Assembly: GCA_020351915.1 (NCBI GenBank)
Contig: CP070673.1
Location: forward strand, 4,844,889 to 4,889,345
DNA from: Deltaproteobacteria bacterium
GTDB lineage: Bacteria; Desulfobacterota; DSM-4660; Desulfatiglandales; B25-G16
Direction: 5' to 3'
DNA length: 44,457 nt
Each line of letters begins with the position of its first letter. Position 1 is the stretch's first letter. Below the pieces are notes generated by a model. The model was not told where the DNA came from, searched no databases, and saw nothing but the letters and a program-made list of their open reading frames with translations. Made by a program: the position numbers and the translations under genes. This document shows, in pieces, positions 5,370-16,108 of the stretch.

Positions 5370-5760
5370 AAGTAGCTGCACGCCTCGACTTTTCTGGTTC
5401 CTCGCTATTTCATGTGGGTAGACCAAATCCTGTAGTTGGATAGGAAGTTTAAGAAGGAAGAAGTAAAGGGCTTGCGGATTTCCATGGACAAAGGTTAACA
5501 GGATTTTCGCCAAGAAACACCATCCCTATCCAGGAGGTTACCACAAGTGAAGTTTAGTAAGCCTCAGTGATATCCGGTGGAGTTTTTGCATGTAGTGGAT
5601 GACGGTATTTGTGTTTTCTGCGCCCAGCAGAGAGTCGATTCATTTTTTCCATGGCTCTGATCTCGTTGTGGACTTTGATCTCTAGTTGGCACACCCTTCT
5701 GATAGTTATTGGCTGCCGTACTGTTCGTGACGGTAAATTGCAAGGAGAATGTAAGTTACA
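5370..5760. other. Intergenic stretch with no recognisable gene
   Basis: I see no coding frame with family signatures and no convincing promoter or terminator in this stretch between the TetR gene and the IS200-like remnant. Confidence 0.5.
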
Positions 5761-5761
5761 T

Positions 5762-6385
5762 GACCCCCCGCAAAGCCGGAGGTTTACTATCGGTAGCCCC
5801 TAAGGGGCAGGCTTATGAGTCCCCTGAAGGGGACCGATCTTCACATTGAAGCGTGCGTTGATCCAGAGGTTCATTCTCCTTCTGTTGCTCTCGAATGTAT
5901 TGCTTTACCTCATCCTCATCGAGACCAATGGTGGATACGAAATAGCCTCGTGCCCAAAGATTCTCTCGAGAAAGATTCCTCCTGCCTTCCATAAGATTCC
6001 TTGCAAATGAAATGGCGCTCGTGCCCTTGATATATCCTATCACAGTGGAAACCGGGTACTTTGACGGAATACTGATACATATAGGGGGACATGATCCAAC
6101 CGCAGATGCCCCTCTTCTGTCTTTGATTGCCTTTGCTTAGACCGTTCATGAACTATATCCCCAGCCGTTTTCGTACCACCTCGACTGTCCGTTTCTTGCG
6201 TCTCTTGGGGATAAACACCACATGATACTTGCAATCCCATTTCGTGTGATGTAAGTTTTGGGAGTTCTTCCTTTCAAACCTCGCATAATGTTTGTTTTAG
6301 TGATTGTTATGGGAGGTTCTATTTCTACTGCCTCACGCGGTCAAACCTTTCGGAGTCCCCCGGCAAAGCAGGGGTTTCCCTGTTT
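5762..6385 (-). mobile_element. IS200-family insertion sequence remnant with terminal hairpins
   Basis: A broken tnpA on the minus strand is bracketed by two related sequences that would form the subterminal hairpins of an IS200 element. At the transposase 5' side (6355-6380), minus-strand sequence contains CCCTGCTTTGCCGGGGG. At the 3' side (5762-5785) it contains CCTCCGGCTTTGCGGGGGG. Two further hairpins, GCCCC-TAA-GGGGC and GTCCCC-TGAA-GGGGAC, lie at about 5797-5842. IS200 elements lack terminal inverted repeats and use such hairpins for single-strand recognition. No tnpB is present. Confidence 0.65.
5813..6295 (-). pseudogene. IS200-type transposase TnpA (HUH/Y1), frameshifted
   Basis: Three overlapping frames together spell a small Y1 transposase. 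The pieces are KWDCKYHVVFIPKRR in one frame, then EEGHLRLDHVP in a second, and VIGYIKGTSAISFARNL leading to WARGYFVSTIGLDEDEVKQY in a third. The last Tyr, followed by IREQ, is the expected catalytic tyrosine. The HUH histidine pair is damaged: the motif reads DHVP where the family has DHVH. With at least two frameshifts and a lost metal-binding histidine, the enzyme is dead. Confidence 0.8.
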
Positions 6386-12948: not shown

Positions 12949-14718
12949 ATGACAACCCATTACATTACAGAGTTAGAGGCAAGAGAAAAACAAAGTCAGA
13001 TGAGGACCGAGCCTTATTGGTCGGAAGGGCCCGATGAGGCATTCAAGGAGATGGAGGAAGTGGTTGGGTCTCGATGGATAACGAGGGACAAGGTGGCCCG
13101 CCAGGCCTATTGTGGCAGAGGATCCGGACATGAAATATACTGGTACCTGAACGTGAGTTATCCTCCTTGCATAATTGTGCTTCCTGCATCGACTGGGGAA
13201 GTAGCTGATATAGTCAGGATTTGTAACAAATATAATCTCCCCTTTGTCCCGACGAGTTCAGGATGGATGATTCAGGGTTTTCCAAGATATCGTTCGGATA
13301 TGGTAACCATTGACCTTCAGAGGATGTGGGAGTGGAAAATAGACAAAAAGAATATGGTTATTACTGTGGGGCCTGGTGTTCGTTACGGACACCACTGCCA
13401 GGCCTGCATTGAGCATGATTTGTGGTTTATAAATACCGGGGGTGGCTCAGCGTCCAGCGTTATTGCCAATACCCTGAGTTTTGGGGTATCGCCGCTCAAT
13501 TACAGGATGGGCAACTCTGAGAGGAGGGCCTTGAGTTTGGAATGGGTAACGCCTGAAGGTGAAATCGTCTATTCTGGTTCGTGGGCACAATGTGAAGAGG
13601 GGTTTTGGGGGGATGGCCCTGGGCCTAACTTGATGGGCATGTTAAGGGGATTCTGTGGATGGTTTGGAGGCATGGGTATTGTCACCAGGATGAATGTGAA
13701 GGCCTTTTCCTTTTTGGAGAATGCCACCGAAATCCTTGTTCCTGAAGGTGTTAGTCCGGACACTCACCTTTCTTTTAAGGACACTGGCCGGATAAGGTGG
13801 ATCAACTTCCAATTCCCTGATAGAAAATCGCTGGAAGACTGCACGATTGAGGTCAGTCATGCCCAACTCGGAGCGGCCTGGACAAAGGTACCGGTTTTCT
13901 GGAGGGATCTTGCCAAGTCTAAGGATAAAGAGGACTTCTGGGAGAGGTGGAGCGGGGTTCAAAAGGAAGATATTGACAACTTCCATTTGCTCCGTGCCCT
14001 TTTTGTAGGGTATACATCTGAGAAGCAAATGGACTACGAGCTTAAGGCATGCGAAGATATTATGAAGAAGTATGGAGGGACGGAGAGAAGAACAAAGCCC
14101 TCTGATGAGTCCTGGATAAAGAACGCAGATGCCAATGGGATGTGGATGCTGACAAGCGGTTATATGTCCACTGATGGAGGCCAAGAAAGCCTTAGAACGG
14201 TCTTTGAGACCGGGAAACGTCTTGGGGATATCCTATACAACCACTATGATCGCTATTTTTTACCTCAGAAAGGTGATGTAGGTTGGTGGCAATCGAATGA
14301 CTTCGGCCACTCGGCATATCTTGAATTTATGCAATATAAGAATGTCGATCATTGGGATCCGCTCTCTCCCTTTTTTCGGCCAGAAACTCGCGAGCAAGGG
14401 ACCAAGTGGTACATGCAAGTTGTTACTGATGTTGATAACGAAACAGGTTTCTGCAACTTTTTCAGTGGATTCCAAAGCTGTTTGCTATACATAGGACCCC
14501 ATAGGTCCGACTTCCAGATCTGGATTGACAGATTTCAAAATGAATTTTCCCCCAAGGGGTTATCTAATCCTCCGACGCCTTACGAGGGTGAGACATTGAT
14601 AGAGCATTTTCCTGCTCATTGGCTGCCAAAGGTTCGGTCTCACATTCGAAGGGCTAAAAGGGGTAGGTCCGTGTGCGCAGGCTCATTACCTGAAAGAAAA
14701 CCATTGAGAGACACATAA
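12949..14718 (+). CDS. FAD-linked oxidase (PCMH fold), second of the redox triad
   Basis: This 589-residue protein has a long N-terminal extension (about 60 residues), then a PCMH FAD-binding domain: YPPCIIVLPASTGEVADIV, then VPTSSGWMIQGFPRYRSDMV and VGPGVRYGHHCQA. NTGGGSASSVIANTLSFG follows, then a GWFGGMGIVTRM segment. It is related to, but clearly diverged from, the oxidase at 9952. After FQNEFSPKGLSNPPTPY, the usual end region of the family, about 45 further residues rich in Arg and Lys follow; that tail may be an extension or the result of a late frameshift. The start follows TCAGGAGGTTTAGGAT. Two different FAD subunits plus one Fe-S subunit recall GlcD-GlcE-GlcF; both FAD subunits here look full-length, unlike the short GlcE. 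Confidence 0.86.
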   Translation: MTTHYITELEAREKQSQMRTEPYWSEGPDEAFKEMEEVVGSRWITRDKVARQAYCGRGSGHEIYWYLNVSYPPCIIVLPASTGEVADIVRICNKYNLPFVPTSSGWMIQGFPRYRSDMVTIDLQRMWEWKIDKKNMVITVGPGVRYGHHCQACIEHDLWFINTGGGSASSVIANTLSFGVSPLNYRMGNSERRALSLEWVTPEGEIVYSGSWAQCEEGFWGDGPGPNLMGMLRGFCGWFGGMGIVTRMNVKAFSFLENATEILVPEGVSPDTHLSFKDTGRIRWINFQFPDRKSLEDCTIEVSHAQLGAAWTKVPVFWRDLAKSKDKEDFWERWSGVQKEDIDNFHLLRALFVGYTSEKQMDYELKACEDIMKKYGGTERRTKPSDESWIKNADANGMWMLTSGYMSTDGGQESLRTVFETGKRLGDILYNHYDRYFLPQKGDVGWWQSNDFGHSAYLEFMQYKNVDHWDPLSPFFRPETREQGTKWYMQVVTDVDNETGFCNFFSGFQSCLLYIGPHRSDFQIWIDRFQNEFSPKGLSNPPTPYEGETLIEHFPAHWLPKVRSHIRRAKRGRSVCAGSLPERKPLRDT

Positions 14719-15250
14719 CCATAAATGTTCATCATGAACCCAGACTGTTCAACTCAGAGAGGAGGATTGAGCTCCATTAGGCATTGAGCAGGAAGGGATT
14801 TAAGAATTTCAGGAGGTGAAGAGAGTAAGTCTCGAATTTACTCAAAACACCAGAAAGCCCCGCCCGGAAGAGCGGGAATGAATGGCGTCTTTCTTTGGGA
14901 CGCATGAGCGTCCCGAAACCCAAAATAAGGGATAATCCTTTTTGAGGGATTATAAAGGGGTGAGGCCCCTTTCAGCAAAGCGCCCTCGAGAAAACCTACT
15001 CCCACTCCCCTTCATAAAGGGCAGGGGGATAAAGGCTGAGAGGTTTGCTCAATAACCTCGATACCGGCTCCTTCCCAATGAAGTAAATAAACCAGATTTT
15101 AAAAAAGAGCGCAAGATAGCTTCGGACTTGTTATGGTAATCATAAGACCTGTACAAAGGGCAATTCAGTAAGATAAACCGTAACTGAGATTGGCAAACGG
15201 TAAAGCAACGAAAGTGATTCAAGATATTTTGGTAACCAGGAGGAAAAGGA
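14719..15250. other. Intergenic region holding a cluster of five small hairpins (14858-15021)
   Basis: No gene is recognisable. Within about 165 nt there are five consecutive stem-loops with short loops. CCCGC pairs with GCGGG (14859-14876). TTTGGGACGC-ATGA-GCGTCCCGAA is 14894-14917. ATAATCCTT-TTTG-AGGGATTAT is 14932-14953. AAAGGGG-TGAGG-CCCCTTT is 14954-14972. CCCTT-CATA-AAGGG is 15008-15021. None is followed by a clear T tract, so this is not a simple terminator. A structured RNA or a remnant of a hairpin-ended mobile element are the two ideas I find reasonable. The last 70 nt lead into the ribosome-binding site of the next gene. Confidence 0.5.
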
Positions 15251-16108
15251 ATGCGATTTGACTATTTACAGCCCAAGACCGTTGAAGAGGCTATTTCTTT
15301 ACTGAGTAAGTTTGACGGGAAGGCTAAGGTAATTGCCGGGGGTACCGATTTACTCGTGCAGATAAGGAACAAGGCTATAAAGTCTGAACGTGTAGTTGAT
15401 ATTGGGTCTATACCTGGGCTTGATTATATTAATTACGATGAGAAGCGGGGTCTATCAATCGGCGCTCTCACCACGATTAGAACCCTTGAGACATCGAGTG
15501 AGATTCAGCGGCGGTACCCAGTAATTTGCCGGGCAGCCAGCCAACTTGGCTCAGTGGCGATACGAAATATGGCCACTATCGGTGGCAATCTTTGCAATGC
15601 TGCGCCCTCAGCCGAGAACGCACCAGCCTTGATTGGGCTCTCAGCAACGTGTAAGATTGTCGGTCCTGGTGGGCAGAGGGTAGTACCCTTGGAAGAGTTC
15701 TTTATCGGTCCAGGGAGCACCGTCCTCAAAAAGGGGGAATTGCTCATAGAGATTCAGGTGCCGGTCCCATTACCTCATACCAGGGGTGCATATTTGAAGC
15801 ACGGGATAAGGGGAACAATTGAGCTGGCGATTGTGGGAGTAGCCACGATACTCACTTTAGCGCCTAGAGCTCGGGTTTGCAGGGATATTAGGGTAGTACT
15901 GGGTGCGGTAGCCCCGATACCAATGAGGGCGCGAAAAGCTGAGAAGGTACTCAGGGGGAAAAAGATTGATGAGGCTCTCATGAACGAGGCAGCTGAGGCT
16001 GCCTCGCGGGAAGCACGCCCTATAACTGATGTTCGCGCTACTGCCGAATACAGGAGGGAGATGGTAGGAGTATTTACTCGGCGGGCTATAAGGGAAGCGC
16101 TAGCTTAA
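15251..16108 (+). CDS. Xanthine-oxidase-family molybdenum hydroxylase, FAD subunit (CoxM-like)
   Basis: This 285-residue protein matches medium, FAD-binding subunits of molybdenum hydroxylases. It opens MRFDYLQPKTVEEAISLLSK, has the FAD-pyrophosphate motif VIAGGTDLLVQIRN (residues about 32-45) and the second flavin-binding block MATIGGNLCNAAPSAENAPA (about 108-127). The C-terminal CO-dehydrogenase-flavoprotein domain follows. It passes electrons from the Fe-S subunit to the final acceptor. It is the ordinary CoxM length and lacks the roughly 40-residue [4Fe-4S] insert known in 4-hydroxybenzoyl-CoA reductase HcrB. GGAGGAAAAGGA precedes the ATG. The three subunit genes follow in the order FAD, Fe-S, Mo with short gaps and one overlap, so they form one operon and one heterotrimer. 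Confidence 0.92.
   Translation: MRFDYLQPKTVEEAISLLSKFDGKAKVIAGGTDLLVQIRNKAIKSERVVDIGSIPGLDYINYDEKRGLSIGALTTIRTLETSSEIQRRYPVICRAASQLGSVAIRNMATIGGNLCNAAPSAENAPALIGLSATCKIVGPGGQRVVPLEEFFIGPGSTVLKKGELLIEIQVPVPLPHTRGAYLKHGIRGTIELAIVGVATILTLAPRARVCRDIRVVLGAVAPIPMRARKAEKVLRGKKIDEALMNEAAEAASREARPITDVRATAEYRREMVGVFTRRAIREALA

Follow-up and report, generated by a model that had tools for sequence, protein, structure and literature searches.

The hairpin-rich intergenic segment at 14842-14952 of the window (the whole 44,457-nt stretch of DNA analysed here) is, with a probability of roughly 0.93, a decayed, TnpA-dependent non-autonomous element of the IS200/IS605 family, of the PATE type. This assignment rests on further copies in the same genome, the occurrence of the same ends on intact tnpA genes, the covariation between guide and junction, and compensatory changes in the stems. 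The original prediction had named the eroded end of an IS200/IS605-like element as one of its two readings of the hairpin cluster, and these observations favour that reading. The cluster is not an isolated structured RNA.

Hairpins and the repeated unit

All five stem-loops predicted between 14858 and 15021 are present there, between two open reading frames (Table 1). Their density, said to exceed chance, does so when counted in base pairs: stems of at least 6 bp contribute 27 base pairs, a value reached in 1 of 1000 dinucleotide shuffles and, along the 44-kb window, in only 3 of 1081 equal-sized slices, all overlapping at the cluster. The number of such hairpins (three) is less unusual (44 of 1000 dinucleotide shuffles). 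Single-strand DNA folding gave z = -4.18 relative to dinucleotide shuffles for 14858-15021 and z = -3.33 for 14837-14955.

Table 1. Positions of the element copy, its parts and its surroundings; positions are those of the window unless a contig is given.
Feature	Position	Strand	Remark
Upstream ORF, FAD-linked oxidase-like	12949-14718		name read from sequence
TTAC tetranucleotide, left flank	14838-14841	+	putative target / left cleavage site (CL in IS608 terms)
Element copy, probably decayed and non-autonomous	14842-14952	+	left end and internal part; ~80% identity to the two long copies
Outer stem ACCA (14849-14852) / TGGC (14883-14886) around left hairpin	14849-14886	+
Guide AAAG, 5' foot of left hairpin	14854-14857	+	pairs with TTAC in IS608 register
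Left-end hairpin CCCCGCC..GCGGGA	14858-14877	+	compensatory changes in 5/7 pairs, 27 sequences
Stem 1	14859-14876		5 bp
Internal hairpin TTTGGGACGC-ATGA-GCGTCCCGAA (stem 2)	14894-14917	+	10 bp, one G-T; paired changes relative to other long copies
Third hairpin ATAATCC..GGATTAT (stem 3)	14932-14953	+	9 bp; right edge of shared unit
Fourth hairpin AAAGGGG-TGA-GGCCCCTTT (stem 4)	14954-14972	.	8 bp; outside shared unit
Fifth hairpin CCCTTCATAAAGGG (stem 5)	15008-15021	.	5 bp; outside shared unit
Downstream ORF, xanthine-dehydrogenase-FAD-subunit-like	15251-16108		name read from sequence
Long copy	G000:C1 3873020-3873135		DNA search
Long copy	G000:C1 2157717-2157834	minus	DNA search
Broken tnpA (L044/L051)	G000:C1 3579944-3580301	minus	ends of the element's type

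A DNA search of the 5.09-Mb host genome returned five further places (E 6e-23 to 7e-6), and the set was extended by a second query and a pattern search. This check for other genome copies, suggested with the original prediction, yielded two long and at least five one-hairpin copies with unrelated flanks. All three long copies, that in the window included, begin at TTTAC, with TTAC directly preceding the left end in the other two as well, and their similarity ends at the same point (window ~14952), beyond which the sequences are unrelated; on its right side the window copy is delimited only by this end of similarity. The predicted extent of the cluster holds in part, as stems 1 to 3 lie inside the repeated unit while stems 4 and 5 lie outside it and the unit itself starts at 14842. 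At the internal hairpin the other long copies carry TTTGGGGCCC-ATGA-GGGCCCCAAA, so that the stem is kept by paired changes. The third hairpin is specific to the window copy, the other two being able to pair AACCCC with GGGGTT at that place, and the fourth is absent from both. Farther right, 15005-15052, which is rich in G/C runs, shows weak similarity to internal sequence of the longer relative L155 (local alignment score 33, reached in 0 of 500 composition-matched shuffles), and an older, longer copy might once have occupied the site.

The window unit is 111 nt long, with no ORF listed over it. An internal loop (GAAAG on one side, ATGAA on the other) separates the outer stem from the left hairpin, and most relatives have the guide AATG where the window copy has AAAG. 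The foot pair C14858-A14877 and the outer pair A14849-C14886 are broken. No right end (guide, hairpin and TTCAC border) was recognised in the window copy, and the canonical right hairpin with its TTCAC border is missing from all three long copies of the genome. Since it has no right end and carries stem mismatches, and since no intact matching TnpA was seen in the genome, the window copy is probably now immobile; judged by its sequence, we file it as the remnant of a PATE member rather than as a complete one.

The one-hairpin copies of the host genome (L007, L010, L011, L013 and L019, ~44 nt) mostly lie between TTTAC and a TCAC, TGAC or TCAA border. L014 has the left hairpin and outer stem without the remainder of the element. 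A search for an empty site of the window copy found no orthologous site in nine close genomes, where the gene pair is not conserved.

Relatives with and without tnpA

Related genomes keep the element complete, at ~100-260 nt (~45-260 nt with the short forms), in the order TTAC, left hairpin, internal hairpins, right hairpin and TTCAC. In the commonest form (a slash marks an element border) the left side reads TTAC/GTGAAAAAGCCA-GAATG-CCCC..GGGG-ATGAA-TGGC, followed by the internal part and, to the right of it, GGCTTTTTC-..-GAAGAAG-CCCC..GGGG-TTCTTCAC/. Copies were found in the MAG Ww165, labelled Deltaproteobacteria (30 with the exact left end), in AB_3033_Bin_183 (7), in SG_15_bin78, labelled Desulfatiglandales (3), and in an Anaerolineales MAG (2). 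Over these 42 copies the left tetranucleotide was TTAC in 31 and TGAC in 5, and TCAC formed the right border in 32 of the 37 with a recognised right end. Right-end guides in the relatives are GAAG or GATG, followed by the hairpin and TTCAC. Copy lengths in the other genomes cluster at ~45, 100 and 130 nt, and the 45-nt forms combine the left half of the left end with the right half of the right end. The plasmid collection held no match to the element. Ten of 50 genome-contig pattern stretches (Oscillospiraceae, Alphaproteobacteria and others) were without the element's further sequence and were set aside as chance, as were six viral-contig pattern matches, the hairpin partner being absent in all six.

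A symmetric variant, in which each end has an AATG guide and each border reads TTTAC, is represented by L240, L241 and L243 (genomes G189 and G217). L243 (G189:C296:5336) lies where a long open frame begins; the frame continues across the right part of the element into helicase-like sequence, which suggests insertion into a gene.

The 44-nt one-hairpin copies (TTAC/TGAAAACGCCAGAATG-hairpin-AGCTTCAC/) occur at unrelated sites, at least five in the host genome and five in Ww165. That they are mobile themselves, the single hairpin serving as both ends, is a speculative and rather unlikely reading; the ordinary alternative is deletion in place between two hairpins. Were they mobile, they would rank with the smallest transposing DNA units known.

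Ends of the same plan are also found on tnpA genes. The left end of L181, a tnpA in the same-family genome G012, reads GTCGTT-GAATA-hairpin-ATGAA-AACGAC, and intact relatives were recovered when its protein was searched against 395 genomes of the phylum. Six of them (L204-L208 and L210) have the left-end plan stem-GAATR-hairpin-ATGAA-stem, with deviations in L206 (GGATG for GAATR and AGGAA for ATGAA), and the right-end plan GATG-hairpin-nnTTCAC/T. The gene-less element has the same left and right architecture as this L181/L207 group, which differs from it in carrying an intact tnpA. L207, with the ends TTTTAC/GAAAATCACGCAGAATGCCCCGCCC..GGGCGGGGATGAATGCG ... GATGCCCCGCCC..GGGCGGGGTAATTCAC/, is near identical to the gene-less elements at its left end and in the core; its unit measures ~610 nt in all and encodes a 141-aa Y1_Tnp protein (Pfam 6e-43) similar to the solved IS200/IS605-type transposases 2xm3 and ISHp608 (IS608) TnpA. 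The tnpA genes with these ends are of IS200 type, ~140-175 aa. We infer that a TnpA of the L181/L207 group mobilised the element. The PATE assignment agrees with the subterminal hairpins, whose left-end architecture is that of L181, L204-L208 and L210, with the absence of a gene from the window unit and its ~45-260-nt relatives, and with a constant left border, TTAC, in the window copy and in the 31 copies elsewhere.

Covariation of guides, borders and stems

The left-end guide of IS608, AAAG, sits at the 5' foot of its hairpin and base-pairs with the TTAC border, A16:T-3 and A17:T-4 fixing the register (PMC5934647); a general account of the IS608-type mechanism is available (PMC6006769). Aligned in this register, guide and junction form 77 Watson-Crick pairs out of 81 over 27 left ends, which was never reached in 20,000 guide shuffles, a control that leaves some shared ancestry in. 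The tnpA-bearing elements alone give 27 of 27 pairs (91 of 20,000 shuffles), and guide changes occur in several tnpA lineages. The window copy pairs AAAG with TTAC at 3 of 3 positions; elsewhere AATA goes with TTAT (6/6), GATG with TCAC (2/2) and AATG mostly with TTAC. The dinucleotide 3' of the hairpin tracks the first guide base, AT occurring with AATR and AG with GATG, as the IS608 base triples might predict.

Homologues were also tested for covariation, as had been suggested, and both stems contain compensatory changes. These affect 6 of 6 pairs of the extended outer stem (27 sequences), and the outer and inner stems together have two-sided changes in 11 of 13 pairs. The stem covariation score is 0.483, compared with 0.133 after shuffling and at most 0.098 in slid controls, although stem covariation alone does not separate DNA from RNA. 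Outside the stems, the border tetranucleotide covaries with the guide, a relation expected of transposition and not of an RNA role.

The other reading in the original prediction was a structured RNA. In a cis-acting form, as a riboswitch, leader or small RNA that acts upon the xanthine-dehydrogenase-type operon downstream, it would accommodate the strong folding, the intergenic position and the compensatory changes in the stems. We nevertheless consider it highly improbable. Copies sit in unrelated contexts, and L243 falls inside an open reading frame; what is conserved are characters of transposon ends, including the junction tetranucleotide that covaries with the hairpin foot. Rfam returned nothing at gathering score for the whole window, nor at E <= 1 for 14719-15250.

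For a transposon of the IS200/IS605 family, with the mechanism of IS608, the top-strand hairpins would act as single-stranded DNA, as binding sites of an IS200-type Y1/HUH TnpA supplied in trans. The guide at the hairpin foot would base-pair with the border tetranucleotide and so set the TnpA cut site; the same pairing would also pick the target tetranucleotide (TTAC), and the excised single strand would be joined 3' of a new TTAC.

Host transposases and comparison with known systems

The host genome has 20 Y1_Tnp matches. Six of these are long open frames of 328-398 codons, whose proteins look like members of the RAYT class. The IS200 elements inspected there have other ends, with the broken tnpA L044/L051 as the one exception, and no intact TnpA with ends of the element's type was seen. 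The L044 ends read TTCAC/GAAAAACCAACCCTGGATG-hairpin-AGGAAAGGGTT and GATG-hairpin-AAGGTTCGC/T; compared with the AATG/TTAC type, its left guide (GATG) and its border (TCAC) have each changed, as if the element had been re-targeted in nature. Apart from L044, the IS200 genes inspected in the host genome, Ww165 and AB_3033_Bin_183 all have other ends, and none of the fetched copies has beside it an autonomous tnpA whose left end is exactly GCCAGAATG. A link that had been drawn to the IS200 remnant near 5762 finds no support: this shortened IS200-type tnpA (5757-6097, minus strand, limits approximate) has the right end AAACCTCCGGCTTTGCGGGGGGTCATGTAAC and groups with L033, L037, L042 and L117 in an IS200 subgroup other than that of the element at 14842.

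RAYT-like genes in the host genome and its relatives raise the question of a REP/BIME element mobilised by a RAYT (TnpA-REP). Such an element would share with the present one its small size, the one-hairpin forms and a short hairpin preceded on its 5' side by a tetranucleotide that a Y1 transposase recognises. We hold this origin to be very unlikely, as the guide is AATG or AAAG against a GTAG/GGAG-type tag, the tnpA genes bearing these ends are of the IS200 class, REP/BIME systems are without a two-ended excisable unit, and the RAYT-like genes of the relatives are flanked by other, GTAG-type repeats. Such genes are L183, L191, L193, L195, L199 and L203 (genomes G009 and G012), flanked and in places interrupted by repeats of which GTAGGGCAAGGGCTTGTCCCTTGCC and GTAGCGCAGGGCTTTAGCCCTGCC are examples. 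Descent from an IS605/IS1341-type element, as the remnant of a TnpB/IscB guide RNA (omega RNA), can be dismissed almost entirely: right ends of the IS605 family are hairpin-bearing too, but the TnpB C-terminal domain (PF07282) is absent from the four genomes carrying the element (the host genome and three others), intact ~130-nt units show IS200-style ends on both sides, and Rfam contained no omega-RNA match.

The preferred reading, a PATE-type element, also agrees with characterised systems. IS608 (ISHp608, Helicobacter pylori) has a left border, TTAC, and a left guide, AAAG, identical to those of the window copy; in both, the hairpin follows directly on the 3' side of the guide and the guide-border pairing keeps one register, and the AT after the element's hairpin corresponds to the IS608 base-triple bases A42/T43 (PMC5934647). 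Unlike IS608, which encodes tnpA and tnpB, the element encodes nothing, its left hairpin is enclosed by an additional outer stem, and its family has TCAC rather than TCAA as right border.

Haloquadratum walsbyi has PATEs, namely HqIRS46 and a terminal-only version of ISHwa23. They are short, carry IS605-like palindromes and a conserved border oligonucleotide, and lack terminal inverted repeats; their 52-bp terminal-only forms derive from deletion between palindromes (PMC3119063). The element described here is similarly gene-less, with near-terminal palindromes, no terminal inverted repeats and a conserved border oligonucleotide, and it too has one-palindrome forms (~44 nt here, 52 bp there). 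It differs in sequence, in host (Desulfobacterota-type bacteria instead of an archaeon) and in transposase group, its ends matching IS200-only tnpA genes instead of IS605/IS1341 elements. The kind of element is thus known, while the family itself was not found described in a narrow search of open-access papers.

Explaining the hairpin cluster as a probable transposon relic makes it less likely that structured RNAs are called falsely in genomes of this sort. The family, in which 130-nt and 44-nt forms coexist, provides a natural test of the IS608 guide code, its guide and border combinations AATG/TTAC, AATA/TTAT and GATG/TCAC having diverged together.
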